A stretch of DNA of 40,648 nt from Candidatus Pacearchaeota archaeon. GTDB lineage: Archaea > Nanobdellota > Nanobdellia > Pacearchaeales > GW2011-AR1. Shown here piece by piece: positions 11,128-33,081 of the stretch. Below the pieces are notes generated by a model. That model saw only the letters and a program-made list of their open reading frames with translations, did no database searches and had not been told where the DNA came from. A program made the position numbers and the translations under genes. The stretch covers positions 1 through 40,648 of the forward strand of contig JAGVWX010000005.1 of NCBI GenBank assembly GCA_018304105.1. The letters are read 5' to 3'. Position 1 is the stretch's first letter. Every line of letters begins with the position of its first letter.

Positions 11128-11595
11128 ATGAGCGAAAGATGTGTATTTTGTGATGTTAATTCGATGAACGGAAGAATATTAGACGAAAGTAAAAATACTA
11201 TCACAATATTAAGCAACCCCTGCCTGGTTAAAGGACATGTTTTGGTTATGCCGAAAAGACACGTTGAAAAATTATCTGAATTTAATAAAGAAGAAAGAGT
11301 CGAGCTGATAGAACAAGTTACAAAGATTCAAGAAAAATTGTTAGAAAAATTTAAAGGATGCGATGTAAGACAAAATTATAGGCCCTTTCAAAAAGAAGAC
11401 GGATTGAAAATTGACCACTTGCATATTCATCTTCAGCCGAGAGAATTGTTTGATGAGCTTTATGAAAAATGCCAAGTTCACGAAAAGAAGATATTTAAGA
11501 AATTAAATAAAGAAGAGCTGGACGATTTGACGAAGGAAGTTTTCCAAACCAATCCAATGACTGACGATTCAATGAAGGAGATTTTTGAAAAATGA
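11128..11595 (+). CDS. HIT-family nucleotide hydrolase/transferase
   Basis: 155 residues from ATG 11128, which lies one base after the DP1 stop and has a strong Shine-Dalgarno GGAGG inside the DP1 end; an in-frame upstream ATG at 11083 overlaps DP1 and is unlikely. It has the HIT motif HLHIHL (DHLHIHLQ) and the early CVFCD motif of the histidine-triad family, plus KGHVLVMPKRHVE, the usual second strand and helix. HIT proteins hydrolyse nucleoside phosphoramidates or dinucleotides. It sits between the two PolD subunits and overlaps the next start by ATGA, so it is made with the polymerase; a role in nucleotide clean-up is inference. Confidence 0.9.
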   Translation: MSERCVFCDVNSMNGRILDESKNTITILSNPCLVKGHVLVMPKRHVEKLSEFNKEERVELIEQVTKIQEKLLEKFKGCDVRQNYRPFQKEDGLKIDHLHIHLQPRELFDELYEKCQVHEKKIFKKLNKEELDDLTKEVFQTNPMTDDSMKEIFEK

Positions 11596-14500
11596 GCGCG
11601 ATAAATAATCATTTCAAATATATTGAAACTGGGACGAATACTTGCTACGATTTGGCGAGAGAAGCAAGAAAAAAAGGAGTTGATCCCGTTAATGATGTTG
11701 AGACACCGATAGCAACGACTCTTGCCGAAAAGGCGATAGGACTGATTTCTGTTTTGTATCCGCAAATTCAGGACAAAAGAATTATTGATCGAATTTTAGA
11801 ATTAGAAAAAGAATACGGACAGCTTGACCCGGGGGTTGCGTTTAAGATTGCTGAAGAAATTGCAAAAGAAAGATATTGCAAGTTCACGAGCCAGATGGAA
11901 GCGATAGACGCTGGAATTAGAGTTGGGTTTTCTTACATTACTCTCGGGGTTGTTTCTTCGCCGATTGAAGGATTTACCGGTTTGAAACTGGGAAAGACGC
12001 GGGATGGGAAAGAATATTTCAAGGCTTATTTTTCTGGGCCGATAAGGAGCGCAGGAACTACGGCAAGCTGCATGGTACTCATGCTTATTGATTATCTCAG
12101 GGAAACATTCGGGTATGCAAAATATGACCCAGATGAAAATGAAGTCAAGAGATATGTGACTGAAAATTATGATTACCATGAAAGAGTCACGAATTTGCAG
12201 TATCTGCCGACGGAAGCAGAGATAGAATTCCTGGCAAGAAGACTCCCAATCCAAATCGCTGGCGAGCCGTCGGAGAAGAGGGAGGTTTCAAACTATAAAG
12301 ATTTGGACAGAGTTGAAACTAATTTTATAAGGGGGGGAATGTGCCTGATTTTTTCGGAAGGGTTGGCGCAAAAGGCACAGAAAGGAATAAGGCTGCTGAA
12401 GAAAGGAGTTAAGGACAGAGGGTTTACTTCAACGGGATGGGACTATCTTGAGGAATTTATAGAAAAGTTCAAGATGAAAAAGAAAGAAGGCGACAAAGTA
12501 GAAGGAAAGCCTGTTTATATCAAAGACATTGTCGCGGGAAGGCCCGTCTTTAGTCATCCATCGAGGTCTGGAGGATTTAGATTTAGATATGGGCGGAGTA
12601 GGAGCGGAGGATTTTCTGCAACGCTCGTGCATCCGGCGACGATGGCAATTTCGAATAATTTTCTTTCTTCTGGAACGCAGTTGAAAATAGAAAAGCCAAC
12701 GAAAGGGTGTGCGATAACTGTTTGCGATGAAATTGACGGGCCAATTGTGAAGCTGAAAAACGGAAGCGTGAGAAAACTTAAAGATTTTGACGAAGCTAAG
12801 AAACTTTACAGGCAGACTGAAGAAATAATTTACCTAGGAGACATTCTTTTCCCATTGGACGACGTGATTAATAGAAATTACGTTTTGCTGAAGCCGGGAT
12901 ATGTGGAAGAGTGGTGGGAACTTGAATTGGAAAAAGCGGGGGGGCGCGTTAGTGACAAGTTTAAAGTCGATTTTGATGAAGCAGCAAAACTTTCTGGGAA
13001 GTTTAACGTTCCATTGCATCCAGAATATATTTATTATTGGACTCAGATAGACAAGGAACTATTTTTTTCATTAATTGACTGGATTGGGCATGGAGAATTT
13101 GCGGATTCAAAAATGATTCTGCCTTGGAACAAAAGCGATAAAGAAAGATTTGTAAAAGGAAAGCGGGCGCTGGAGTTGATTGGGGCAGAGCACGAAGTAA
13201 CCTTGGAAAATGTCGTGCTGAACAGCAAAGACACCAAGGCGTTATTGTTTAATTTAGGTTTTGATGTTTCTATTGTTGACAAAGAAACTTTTGAAGCGCA
13301 GTTCGATAAAATGTTAAACAAAGTAAAGGCGTGCGACAAAGAGCAAGTGCTTGAAGTAATTAATGAAATCTGCAAGGTAAAAATAAAAGATAAAGCGGGG
13401 TCGTTTATAGGGGCGAGGATGGGAAGGCCGGAGAAAGCGAAACTGAGAAAATTGAAAGGAAGCCCGCATGTTTTGTTTCCTGTCGGAGAAGAGGGGGGAA
13501 GGCTTAGAAGTTTTCAAGCGGCACACGATGCAGGAAGCGTGAAAGCAGACTTTCCATTTTTTTATTGCAAGAATTGTGAAAGGGAAGAAGTTTATGGAAA
13601 ATGCTTGGTTTGCGGGGAGCAGTGCATAAGAAGAAAGGAAGAGGGATTTGACTACGGGGAAAAGAGAATTGACTTGCGGGAGTATTTTGACCATGCTAAG
13701 AAAATTGCGGGAGTCAGCGCAGACGAAATTCCAATCGTAAAGGGTGTCAAGGGGACAAGCAATGCAGACCACGTAACGGAATTTTTGGCGAAGGGACTGT
13801 TAAGGTCAAAACATAATTTGCATGTTAACAAAGACGGGACTATAAGATATGACATGACTGAAATGGCTTTTACTCATTTTAAGCCAAAGGAAATAGGAAC
13901 GAGTGTTGAAAAGTTGAAAAGCATGGGTTATGAAACTGACACCTTGGGGAAGAAACTTGAGAATGACGAGCAGATATTGGAATTGTTTCCGCACGATGTT
14001 GTTCTGCCGGCATGCCCCGAAACACTGGATGAAAAAGCAGATGATGTTTTTTTGAGAATCTCACAATTTATAGACGACGAATTAGATAAGATTTATGGAT
14101 TGAAACATTTTTATGATGCGAAAAAGCCAGAAGATTTGATTGGGCATTTGGTTGTTTGCATTGCGCCGCACATATGCACGGCGAGCGTTGGGAGAATAAT
14201 AGGCTTTTCTAAGATTCAAGCACTGCTTGCTTCGCCTTATATGCACGCGGCGATGAGAAGAGACTGTTTGGGTTATGATAATTTTGTGTCTATTAAGGAG
14301 AACGGGTTGTGGAGAATAAAAAAAATTGGGGAATTTATTGAGTCGTCAAATCCACGAGAGTTGATAGATGGATTTGGGACTTTGGGGAAAAAGATGGGCG
14401 GACTTGGTGTATGGAGCAATCCGGGCGAAGGGAAAATTAAAGAAATCACTAAACATTCCCCCGGGAAACTATTGAAATTGTTCCTGGAAGATGGGCGAGA

Positions 14501-16382
14501 AATCAAATTAACAGAAAATCATAAAGTTTATACAAAGGGTAAGCTAGAGAAGAAGGCACTGGAGCTTTCTGTTGGGGATAAACTTACTGTTAGTTACAAT
14601 AAAAATATTGAAGAGAGAGACATCGACTGGCTGTTCTTGCCGGAAATTTTTTCAGGAAGGAAAGATGTTATGCTTCGGAACATTAATTCTTTTCTTGGCA
14701 AGTTTGAAGAATTGGATAAACATCGGAATTTTTATCAGAGAGACAGCTATCCAATAAGTTTTGTTGAAGAGTTCTTAAGGAGACATAAACTTGGGCTGAA
14801 GAATTTGCCGGACGAAGTCAAAATAGCAATAAAAAGAGACAATGTCGACCTTCCTATCAGAATACTCCTTGAGAAAGAGCTTTTAGAAGTTATCGGCCTT
14901 TATATTGCAGAAGGCTATCTGAGGAAGAATGATTCTAAGAAAGGATTTTACCAGATTTCTATAGCAGGCAACGGAGAAATTAAAGAATTTGTCAAAAAGG
15001 TTTTTCATTCTTATTTTGGATTGCGAGAATCCTATGAGAATGCTGACCAGGTTGTTTTTTCTTCGCGCTTAGTTTATGAACTGTTTAAGGATTACCTTGA
15101 CGTGGGGGAGGGGGCGAAAGGCAAAAGAATACCTTATAGGTTTTTGGATTTGAAAAAAGAAAAACTCGCCGCGTTGCTGAGGGGATATTTCGAGGGGGAC
15201 GGCAGCGTCAGTTTAGGCGACGTGAGAGTTTGCTGCGATAGCGTCAGCGAAGGCCTGAAACACGATTTAAGCTTTGCCTTGGCAAGATTCGGCATCCTTA
15301 CTAAGTTTTATGATTATGAAAAAAAGCCTGGAAAAATCGTTGGCGATTTTTATTTGAAGAAAGGCAGAGAAATTCCTACTTTTAGGATAACTAAAATAAC
15401 AGTCTTATCAAATTTCGTTAAGAAGTTTAAGCAGATTGGTTTTATCTCGGATAGAAAGAATAAAATCTTAGAAGAAATCTGCAAGCGCAAACCGTACGGG
15501 ACAAGAATTGATTTCGATGATAACTATGCCTATCCAAAAATTGTGCGAATTGAAAAGATGGAAGAAGAACCGACATATTGTTTTAACGTTGCTTCAGAAC
15601 ATAACTTTTTCGCAAACGATATTTTGGTTCATAACTGCGACGGAGACGAGGCGGCTGCTATGCTGCTGATGGATTTATTGCTGAATTTTTCAAAGAAGTT
15701 TTTGCCTGCGCACAGAGGAGGAACTCAAGACGCTCCATTGGTTTTGAATACACACATCAGGGCAGGAGAAGTCGATGACCAGATTTTAGATTTTGTTCTT
15801 GGGAAGTATGACTTAGAAATTTATGAATTGGCCGAACAAGGAAAGCATAGTTCTGAAGTAAGGGTTGATAATGTGAAGTCGAGGCTTGCGAACGGACAAG
15901 ATCCGTTTACACACATACAGTACACGCACGAGACGACCGATTTTAATGCAGGAGTGATAAACTCGTCTTACAAGATTTTGCCGACGATGCAGGAAAAAGT
16001 TTTTGAGCAGATGGACTTATGCAAAAAGATAAGGGCCGTTGATGTTGCAGATGTTGCAAGGCTTGTAATAGAGAGGCACTTTATTAGAGATACAAGAGGC
16101 AATCTGAGGAAATTTTCTATGCAAGGGTTTAGATGTGTGAGCTGCAATGCGAAATACCGAAGGCCACCATTGGCGGGGAAGTGCACAAAATGCGGGGGAA
16201 AGATTATTTTTACAATTTCTGAAGGAAGCATTTTGAAATACATGCAACCAGCATTAGATTTAGCCAAAACTTATGGGGCTTCACCATACTTATTAGAAAA
16301 TTTGGAATTGACTGAGATGTATATTCATTCGATATTTGGAAAGGAAAAGGAAAAACAGGCGGGGTTGAGTGAGTTTTTTTGA
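11592..16382 (+). CDS. polC: DNA polymerase D large subunit (DP2) with intein
   Basis: 1596-codon precursor of the archaeal replicative polymerase catalytic subunit; removing the intein (codons 892-1348) leaves 1139 residues, close to the family's normal size. Conserved DP2 stretches include SGPIRSAGTTAS near residue 150, RMGRPEKAK near 610, a zinc site CKNCEREEVYGKCLVCGEQC near 660 and a second (CVSCNAKYRRPPLAGKCTKCGG) near the end. The spliced active site reads RRD-CDGDE, with the two catalytic Asp from the C-extein; relatives have RRNCDGDED. The last eight residues QAGLSEFF fit a PCNA-interacting PIP box (Q-x-x-L-x-x-F-F). Start ATG overlaps the HIT stop. Confidence 0.96.
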   Translation: MSAINNHFKYIETGTNTCYDLAREARKKGVDPVNDVETPIATTLAEKAIGLISVLYPQIQDKRIIDRILELEKEYGQLDPGVAFKIAEEIAKERYCKFTSQMEAIDAGIRVGFSYITLGVVSSPIEGFTGLKLGKTRDGKEYFKAYFSGPIRSAGTTASCMVLMLIDYLRETFGYAKYDPDENEVKRYVTENYDYHERVTNLQYLPTEAEIEFLARRLPIQIAGEPSEKREVSNYKDLDRVETNFIRGGMCLIFSEGLAQKAQKGIRLLKKGVKDRGFTSTGWDYLEEFIEKFKMKKKEGDKVEGKPVYIKDIVAGRPVFSHPSRSGGFRFRYGRSRSGGFSATLVHPATMAISNNFLSSGTQLKIEKPTKGCAITVCDEIDGPIVKLKNGSVRKLKDFDEAKKLYRQTEEIIYLGDILFPLDDVINRNYVLLKPGYVEEWWELELEKAGGRVSDKFKVDFDEAAKLSGKFNVPLHPEYIYYWTQIDKELFFSLIDWIGHGEFADSKMILPWNKSDKERFVKGKRALELIGAEHEVTLENVVLNSKDTKALLFNLGFDVSIVDKETFEAQFDKMLNKVKACDKEQVLEVINEICKVKIKDKAGSFIGARMGRPEKAKLRKLKGSPHVLFPVGEEGGRLRSFQAAHDAGSVKADFPFFYCKNCEREEVYGKCLVCGEQCIRRKEEGFDYGEKRIDLREYFDHAKKIAGVSADEIPIVKGVKGTSNADHVTEFLAKGLLRSKHNLHVNKDGTIRYDMTEMAFTHFKPKEIGTSVEKLKSMGYETDTLGKKLENDEQILELFPHDVVLPACPETLDEKADDVFLRISQFIDDELDKIYGLKHFYDAKKPEDLIGHLVVCIAPHICTASVGRIIGFSKIQALLASPYMHAAMRRDCLGYDNFVSIKENGLWRIKKIGEFIESSNPRELIDGFGTLGKKMGGLGVWSNPGEGKIKEITKHSPGKLLKLFLEDGREIKLTENHKVYTKGKLEKKALELSVGDKLTVSYNKNIEERDIDWLFLPEIFSGRKDVMLRNINSFLGKFEELDKHRNFYQRDSYPISFVEEFLRRHKLGLKNLPDEVKIAIKRDNVDLPIRILLEKELLEVIGLYIAEGYLRKNDSKKGFYQISIAGNGEIKEFVKKVFHSYFGLRESYENADQVVFSSRLVYELFKDYLDVGEGAKGKRIPYRFLDLKKEKLAALLRGYFEGDGSVSLGDVRVCCDSVSEGLKHDLSFALARFGILTKFYDYEKKPGKIVGDFYLKKGREIPTFRITKITVLSNFVKKFKQIGFISDRKNKILEEICKRKPYGTRIDFDDNYAYPKIVRIEKMEEEPTYCFNVASEHNFFANDILVHNCDGDEAAAMLLMDLLLNFSKKFLPAHRGGTQDAPLVLNTHIRAGEVDDQILDFVLGKYDLEIYELAEQGKHSSEVRVDNVKSRLANGQDPFTHIQYTHETTDFNAGVINSSYKILPTMQEKVFEQMDLCKKIRAVDVADVARLVIERHFIRDTRGNLRKFSMQGFRCVSCNAKYRRPPLAGKCTKCGGKIIFTISEGSILKYMQPALDLAKTYGASPYLLENLELTEMYIHSIFGKEKEKQAGLSEFF
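14265..15635 (+). mobile_element. Intein with LAGLIDADG homing endonuclease in PolD large subunit
   Basis: 457 residues. The first residue is Cys (CLGYDNFVSI, block A), block B carries TENH (intein residues 83-86), and the end is FFANDILVHN with the terminal His-Asn followed by Cys+1 of the C-extein: all splicing residues are present. Two LAGLIDADG-type helices (VIGLYIAEGY near residue 208 and LLRGYFEGDGSV near 304) keep the acidic residues, so the endonuclease looks intact. The insertion is between D and C of RRD|CDGDE, the same catalytic-site position used by known PolD inteins of Pyrococcus. Splicing is required for an active polymerase. Confidence 0.95.
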
Positions 16383-16426
16383 GAAGAAAAAGGTTTTTAA
16401 CAGGTCGTTTTTTAGAGTAATAAGTT

Positions 16427-16600
16427 GCCTCTATAGCTCAAGGTTTAAAATAAACAGAACTATAGCGACAAGGTTGCCTCTATAGCTCAGGGGAAACAAA
16501 GTTTCTGAGCCATAGCAACAAGGTTGCCTCTATAGCTCAGGGGAAACAAAGTTTCTGAGCCATAGCGGAAACAAAGTTTCTGAGCCATAGCAACAAGGTT
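16427..16600 (+). repeat. Three truncated tRNA-Thr 5' copies, each with a hairpin
   Basis: The first 14-18 bases of the adjacent tRNA-Thr (GCCTCTATAGCTCAGGGG) occur at 16427, 16476 and 16526 before the real gene at 16601. After each, the sequence folds back: in copies 2 and 3, CTATAGCTCAG pairs with CTGAGCCATAG through an inner GAAAC/GTTTC stem, then CAACAAGGTT leads to the next copy. Units are 49, 50 and 75 bases; the last contains an extra 25-base tandem duplication of its second half. Copy 1 is more diverged (CTATAG...CTATAG with GTTTA/TAAAC). Confidence 0.85.
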
Positions 16601-16672
16601 GCCTCTATAGCTCAGGGGTAGAGCAGTGGTTTTGTAAACCAAAGGTCGGGGGTTCGAATCCCTCTAGAGGCT
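16601..16672 (+). tRNA. tRNA-Thr (UGU)
   Basis: Folds as a full cloverleaf of 72 bases: acceptor GCCTCTA/TAGAGGC, D arm GCTC AGGGGTA GAGC, anticodon loop TTTGTAA with anticodon TGT, T arm GGGGG TTCGAAT CCCTC. The anticodon stem has one mismatch at its base (G27 against A43). The discriminator base is T, as in many archaeal tRNA-Thr. CCA is not encoded. No intron. It follows the polC gene and is flanked by truncated copies of its own ends. Confidence 0.93.
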
Positions 16673-16774
16673 TGGCTTTGCCAAGCCATGCGGCAAACAA
16701 TGTTTGCCTAGAGGCTTAATTTGCATAGCAGATTAAGCATCGCGATGGTTTCTGAAGGAAACGCATCTAGGGGC
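16669..16774 (+). repeat. Hairpin series with repeated tRNA-Thr 3' acceptor ends
   Basis: The tRNA's 3' acceptor strand CTAGAGGC (16664-16671) recurs at 16708-16715 and as CTAGGGGC at 16767-16774. Between copies are near-perfect hairpins: 16669-16687 (8-bp stem, TTT loop), 16692-16708 (7 bp, AAT loop), 16715-16737 (10 bp with one G-T, ATA loop) and 16744-16767 (GATG-GTTTC / GAAAC-CATC, one bulge). This mirrors the truncated 5' copies on the other side. Confidence 0.8.
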
Positions 16775-16829
16775 TTTGAACTAAAATAGCTTAACCAAAA
16801 TTTATAAGCCAGACGTGCCTTTGTAATAT

Positions 16830-32904: not shown

Positions 32905-32977
32905 AGCCCTATAGTCTAGTGGTCAAGGACGTCGGGTTTTGGTCCCGGAAACCGCGGTTCGAATCCGCGTAGGGCTA
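32905..32977 (+). tRNA. tRNA-Gln (UUG)
   Basis: 73-base cloverleaf: acceptor AGCCCTA/TAGGGCT, D arm GTC...GAC, anticodon stem TCGGG/CCCGG with loop TTTTGGT and anticodon TTG, variable AAAC, T arm CGCGG TTCGAAT CCGCG, discriminator A. No intron, no encoded CCA. A decayed copy of its 3' end lies about 100 bases downstream. Confidence 0.94.
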
Positions 32978-33081
32978 AAGAATCTTTGATTCGCTATTGC
33001 TACGGGCATCCTCGTCTGGCTCACGCCGACTGTGGTGCTCCTCGCAGCTGCGAACAAAGAGGTTCAAACATGGTAGGGCTA
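32978..33081 (+). repeat. Hairpin-rich insert with duplicated tRNA-Gln 3' end
   Basis: Starts right after the tRNA. Contains hairpin GAATC TTT GATTC (32980-32992), a GC-rich imperfect hairpin (about 33006-33038) and palindrome TCGCAGCTGCGA (33042-33053), then GGTTCAAACATGGTAGGGCTA (33061-33081) here cut: GGTTCAAACATG then GTAGGGCTA. This last stretch copies the T-loop and acceptor end of the tRNA (GGTTCGAATCC...GTAGGGCTA). The final nine bases are identical to the tRNA end at 32969-32977. Confidence 0.75.

Follow-up and report, generated by a model that had tools for sequence, protein, structure and literature searches.

Copies of tRNA gene ends joined to short hairpins in a Pacearchaeota genus: a candidate family of mobile modules

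Archaeal integrative elements leave a complete tRNA gene together with a partial copy of it, and tRNA fragments left by integration are common in archaea (PMC9897764). Elements of the SSV type use the 3′ end of the tRNA and those of the pTN3 type use the 5′ half (PMC8371274). Here we describe the tRNA-Thr(TGT) gene of a Candidatus Pacearchaeota archaeon, which lies in a window of 40,648 nt (the whole of contig JAGVWX010000005.1, contig 19 of a 1.06 Mb draft genome, G000) and is flanked by short copies of its own two ends, each joined to a hairpin. We propose that the two ends of tRNA genes in this lineage host a family of mobile hairpin modules, very short and lineage-specific, and that the locus is one of its sites, a reading to which we assign a probability of about 0.47. 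Such modules resemble archaeal integrative elements in targeting tRNA genes and in having a complete tRNA next to a partial copy. However, the integrative elements are ~9–23 kb long and carry an integrase, whereas the modules are gene-less, occur at both ends and at most tRNAs, and have their copy sealed by an antisense strand.

Other described systems share single features with the modules. Casposons and Cas1-type integrases also give repeat–insert–repeat arrays, but the casposon duplication consists of the last few base pairs of the tRNA plus downstream DNA, while the duplication here is confined to the tRNA and goes no further than its end. The casposon duplication is ~14 bp long; the 5′ copies here, which may be target duplications, are 13–23 nt long with a median of 15. 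IS200/IS605 elements and REP and PATE palindromes are small, hairpin-ended and non-coding, like the modules, and a TCAA motif next to the hairpin of the 5′ units recalls an IS608 end. Nevertheless, the IS200/IS605 family makes no target duplication, and its Y1 transposase gene does not track the units. SINE-like and tRNA-targeting retroelements are likewise small and structured, with target duplications of variable length and a preference for tRNA genes, but the modules differ from them in that one of their boundaries always falls at the tRNA end and that they carry an antisense arm. In split, permuted and multi-intron archaeal tRNAs the ends are separated by structured sequence, as here, but here the fragments come in addition to an uninterrupted tRNA gene. 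No description of this arrangement was found in the open-licence literature on tRNA fragments, DPANN, Woesearchaeota, Pacearchaeota, casposons or duplicated leaders, and the modules match no known mobile element or RNA family that we found.

The intact tRNA-Thr gene (69.7 bits) is preceded by three copies of its 5′ end, each of 20 nt with 95–100% identity and spaced by 49, 50 and 75 nt, and the acceptor 3′ strand recurs twice after it, at about 16708–16717 and about 16766–16776 (Table 1). Every end copy has a hairpin attached, and the arrangement given in the original prediction is borne out. The 361-nt segment has a folding z score of −5.5 against dinucleotide shuffles, with none of 100 shuffles folding equally well. 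The first 41 nt are identical in 5′ units 2 and 3, and unit 3 is longer than the others because of an internal 25-nt duplication. Compared with the three 5′ units here, the sister species G008 has one, with an unchanged outer stem and the inner stem GTCC/GGAC, and G004 has a shorter one. In the 3′ unit of G004 the last hairpin has both GACG..CGTC, in place of the GATG..CATC of G000, and GTTTGC..GCAAAC. These stem changes indicate that the arrangement was kept while its sequence turned over. The sequence aligned to the TATA-like element ~30 nt before the first stub (as we call the outer 5′ copy) stands in relatives directly before the gene's own 5′ copy or the tRNA, which would place the units between promoter and gene if the element acts as a promoter.

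Copies of a tRNA's own ends were sought within 300 nt of each tRNA, the 5′ end upstream and the 3′ end downstream. The 5′ copies (n = 45) are identical to the gene from +1 inward for a median of 15 nt (13–23) and stop at about position 14–16, inside the D-loop. On the outer side, in the leader, similarity is slight or absent, tandem units excepted. The 3′ copies (n = 42) are identical up to the last base and extend 12 to 24 nt inward; the lower length limits at both ends were set by the search words. The insert between copies is 25–140 bp, and full 3′ elements are ~90–145 nt with several hairpins, whose stems vary from copy to copy. Each 5′ copy pairs with an imperfect antisense strand, which closes it into a hairpin. 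In permutations that ignored the kinship of orthologous units, this sealing was strong at the 5′ end, where pairing of stubs with their own units summed to −438 kcal/mol against −308 ± 15 when permuted (0/500 as strong), and weaker at the 3′ end (−443 against −408 ± 14, 2/500). The pairing of the D-stem side with a complementary strand, proposed from the tRNA-Thr locus, was correct and is general across 5′ units.

The tRNA-Thr locus had been regarded as a single oddity, but the arrangement is instead genome-wide and genus-wide. A search for tRNA end fragments near tRNA genes found own-end copies at 28 of the 41 tRNA predictions of G000, with the 5′ end upstream at 18 and the 3′ end downstream at 17. 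Sister species had them at 13/20 (G004) and 5/8 (G008) tRNAs, and further sister genomes at 3/19 (G003), 2/12 (G009), 2/5 (G002) and 0/10 (G001); the rates outside G000 are rough, loci having been picked partly by tRNA score or likeness to the tRNA-Thr locus. A pattern scan identified three of the sister genomes as Ca. Pacearchaeota archaeon UBA73 and two MAGs labelled 'Nanoarchaeota archaeon'. When the sides were reversed (5′ end downstream, 3′ end upstream) no copies were found at 193 tRNAs from all genomes, and when the ends of other tRNAs were used the rate was ~1% per tRNA in the well-sampled genomes. These two controls reject chance similarity. All genomes compared are drafts, aligned with MAFFT and with several structural comparisons judged by eye. 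An assembly artefact is very unlikely because independently assembled sister genomes have comparable units at the same tRNA. Occupancy of one isoacceptor is patchy among sister species, and outside the genus only scattered cases were seen, mostly 3′, including two in another family of the same class (G052).

Two further sites add to the range of forms. A tandem array of 54-nt 5′ units with the stub GGCCCTGTAAGCTA reaches a contig end in G008 (C31; L139:1–170, minus strand), which suggests that such arrays break assemblies. Upstream of tRNA-Phe in G000 (L048, C16:35617) there are tandem hairpin repeats without any tRNA stub, and hairpin units thus need not carry a tRNA end.

Many units share a conserved core. 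At the 5′ end the order is stub, AATC, variable stem, TCAA and antisense, with an AAGG core as a variant, and at the 3′ end the core has a 7-nt loop, TTTCTAA, although other modules occur there as well. In both, the unpaired core bases are conserved and the stems change. The possibility that AATC is merely the tRNA D-loop was dropped, as in the Lys and Ile units it comes after the whole D-loop. A covariance model of the 5′ core built from seven units was searched across 180 genomes of the order and gave 13 matches at E ≤ 0.001, 12 of them within the genus. Six of the genus loci had not been known before this search, and all lie in tRNA 5′ flanks (Ser-GGA twice, Ser-CGA, Ser-TGA, Ser-GCT and Glu-CTC) with stubs that are the 5′ end of the adjoining tRNA itself. 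The one match in another genus is upstream of an open reading frame (ORF) that starts MGLNIREIVPKKE and looks FEN1-like by eye. Before another FEN1-like gene (G295, L241:1450–1560) a ~50-nt tandem hairpin repeat directly precedes the start codon. With a model of the 3′ core, significant matches in ~450 kb of G000 adjoin tRNAs only. Rfam covariance models applied to the flanks, at gathering and relaxed thresholds, returned tRNA and nothing else credible.

The 3′ core recurs beside different tRNAs in different species. It is 100% identical between tRNA-Ala of G003 and tRNA-Thr of G002, and 98% identical between tRNA-Pro of G003 and tRNA-Cys of G008 and between tRNA-Pro of G000 and tRNA-Leu of G001; mean identity across genomes is 0.67 for the same tRNA and 0.65 for other tRNAs. 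This recurrence implies that the 3′ core moves. Within G000, modules are common to non-homologous flanks at 10 of 25 tRNAs and are hardly shared with ordinary intergenic DNA, the clear exception being a stretch that carries on the tRNA-Ile array beyond 200 nt. A reversed 3′ core occurs in sister genera (G256, G244 and G286; L208, L202, L209, L200 and L212), in tRNA introns (Lys, Leu), after tRNA-Glu, before 16S rRNA and before a FEN1-like start codon. The tRNA-Ser intron of G002 (L244:462–665) also has one, the loop of which contains a second hairpin resembling the F4 module of other tRNAs and looks like a nested insertion. Other, unrelated repeats are common to ordinary intergenic regions of G000 (GACGAAGTCATTCG..CATGAGGCAGCCAG is one such family); the spread of repeats in this genome is thus not in itself confined to tRNAs.

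With 3′ cores shared across tRNAs and species and with patchy occupancy, a hairpin-type mobile element using tRNA ends, one of the explanations in the original prediction, is the most favoured; that interpretation as a whole is partly supported. A recombination cascade, also offered there, agrees with the units having multiplied in tandem but leaves the conserved cores unexplained. We infer mobility from how the modules are distributed in the sequences. In the favoured scheme, a module would enter on the D-loop or T-loop side and leave two copies of the segment between that loop and the gene boundary (~12–24 bp), like a target-site duplication, always with a complete tRNA beside it. The outer duplicate would be sealed into a hairpin by imperfect antisense around the core, and units would multiply by tandem duplication. 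The modules would be transcribed as an extra leader or trailer, cotranscriptional sealing would stop the duplicate from capturing a tRNA strand, and RNase P and tRNase Z would excise the tRNA from the precursor. The host may thus tolerate the modules, since each leaves an intact tRNA and its duplicate is sealed.

Several observations weigh against mobility. The tRNA-Cys 5′ unit is present in all five genomes examined, where stub and antisense track each species' own tRNA, and 5′ cores seem to be passed on with the tRNA type and not to jump. A filled and an empty site within one population were not seen, and none of the enzymes searched (Y1, tyrosine recombinase, Cas1) tracks the unit pattern as a transposase or integrase might. 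The hardest fact is that simple insertion leaves the antisense match to the local tRNA unexplained. This match is the strongest hint of RNA selection or of self-templated synthesis, and two alternatives are retained on its account.

The first is that the units are functional cis-acting RNAs, that is, selected pre-tRNA leaders and trailers that steer folding or processing, with the 5′ strand swapping partners in a bistable precursor. The tracking of each species' tRNA-Cys is as expected from this, as are the conservation of unpaired core bases while stems change, the inner-stem changes that preserve pairing at tRNA-Thr in G008 and G004, and the predicted bistability described below. However, units are missing at many tRNAs and at the same sites of sister genomes, sister lineages manage without them, cores jump among unrelated tRNAs, and copy number varies widely. 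We consider selected function unlikely, but a serious competitor of the mobile reading. The second alternative involves neither element nor function: errors of replication or repair, in which a newly made strand folds back on itself at the D- or T-arm, serves as its own template to give the antisense and re-enters at the gene boundary, with hairpins driving tandem slippage. Near-palindromic units containing antisense copies of the stub, identical tandem units and the symmetrical behaviour of the two gene ends on the two strands are consistent with such errors, but they predict neither the conserved AATC/TCAA and TTTCTAA cores nor one core beside different tRNAs in different species, and we regard this origin as improbable. 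These ideas can be combined with the mobile modules that we favour, in that origin could be by insertion or template switching and upkeep by selection for sealing.

Predicted folding bears on what the units would do to the precursor. With the nearest 5′ unit attached, the mean equilibrium probability of the real acceptor stem in 30 tRNAs fell from 0.97 to 0.22, because the stub can occupy the tRNA 3′ strand (0.74), with the real 5′ strand pairing with the antisense; the precursor is thus predicted to be bistable. When the stub was kept and the rest of the unit shuffled, the probability was 0.05 (Wilcoxon P 0.002), compared with 0.57 for a fully shuffled leader. Sealing as a full rescue of tRNA folding is therefore only partly supported. 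During transcription the stub hairpin would be the first to form, which should favour the correct tRNA.

The equilibrium preference for pairing between stub and 3′ strand would also fit a different gene structure, in which the true 5′ exon is the distal stub, and a spliced D-loop intron makes up the remainder, including the proximal copy; several tRNAs here do carry introns. However, several stubs have lost their pairing with the 3′ strand through sequence drift (GCCGC at tRNA-Thr of G008, GCAGGGA at Ser-GGA of G004) while the proximal gene is intact, and the proximal copy is therefore taken as the real tRNA. In addition, no bulge–helix–bulge was recognised at the junction, as judged by eye, and an RNase P RNA was found (G000, C16:36110–36411; 70 bits against an Rfam cut-off of 84, with close relatives above the cut-off). 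We give the intron structure the least credence of all the readings. The same RNA rejects the possibility that RNase P has been lost, as it was in N. equitans.

Ordinary attL/attR scars of tRNA-targeting viruses or plasmids, later deleted down to hairpins, have precedent in the integration fragments and end preferences introduced above, namely a preference for 3′ ends and use of the 5′ half by pTN3-like integrases. As with such scars, a partial tRNA copy adjoins the intact tRNA. However, no kilobase element or integrase genes lie between the copies, most tRNAs are hit and at both ends, and the small inserts have shared cores and sealing antisense. The proposal that no classical integrase footprint explains both sides agrees with this, G000 having a single tyrosine recombinase, which is probably the chromosomal Xer protein. 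Phage matches are tRNA-like only, and the 3′-core pattern is absent from viral contigs. Scars of this kind are very improbable. The Y1 transposase was found once in G000, not at all in unit-rich G004, and in five or six copies in G006 and G002. Cas1 is absent from G000, G004 and G008, and only G003 of the ten genomes, which are incomplete drafts, has it. The absence of Cas1, the lack of Y1 in G004 and the insert lengths together disfavour casposons, IS200/IS605 elements and ordinary integrase scars. 

We raise, tentatively and with less assurance than mobility itself, the idea of an undescribed class of gene-less mobile hairpins that targets almost any tRNA end, duplicates it and acquires sealing antisense. 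Host repair or an unknown nuclease might move these hairpins, and they may make pre-tRNAs bistable, with the duplicate end able to replace the real one.

Table 1. Features of the tRNA-Thr(TGT) locus and a second case in the window (window positions, all on the plus strand).
Feature	Positions	Composition	Basis or remark
TATA-like element (candidate promoter)	16394–16404	TTTTTAACAGG	Sequence and alignment of relatives
5′ unit 1	16427–16475	Stub (tRNA 1–14), AAGG core, inner stem GTTT/AAAC, complementary strand CTATAG	
5′ unit 2	16476–16525	Stub (tRNA 1–18), hairpin closed by CTGAGCCATAG, tail AACAAGGTT	
5′ unit 3	16526–16600	As unit 2, plus tandem duplication GGAAACAAAGTTTCTGAGCCATAGC	
tRNA-Thr(TGT) gene	16601–16672	Intact	ARAGORN and Rfam
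3′ unit 1	16673–16716	Hairpins TTGGC-TTT-GCCAA and GGCAAAC-AAT-GTTTGCC, then acceptor 3′-strand copy at end	
3′ unit 2	16717–16775	Hairpins GCTTAATTTGC-ATA-GCAGATTAAGC and GATG-GTTTC-loop-GAAAC-CATC, then second, diverged copy at end	
3′-end copy of tRNA-Gln(TTG)	33072–33081	Behind hairpin-rich insert	94 nt past gene (32905–32977)

An ORF of 1596 amino acids (11592–16382) ends just before the tRNA-Thr array. Its size and zinc-ribbon-like C-terminus suggest a putative large subunit of archaeal DNA polymerase D.

Genes for tRNAs are among the most constrained loci, yet here the majority have partial self-copies beside them, frequently as tandem repeats. Should the modules be mobile, they would be among the smallest elements specific to a class of genes, and would show how a parasite can burden essential genes while leaving them intact. 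Should they instead be functional leaders and trailers, they would constitute a layer of tRNA control absent from the literature searched. Both readings have consequences for how tRNAs are annotated, promoters mapped and genomes assembled in this lineage, and through the predicted bistability of the precursors the folding of tRNAs during transcription can be tested directly.
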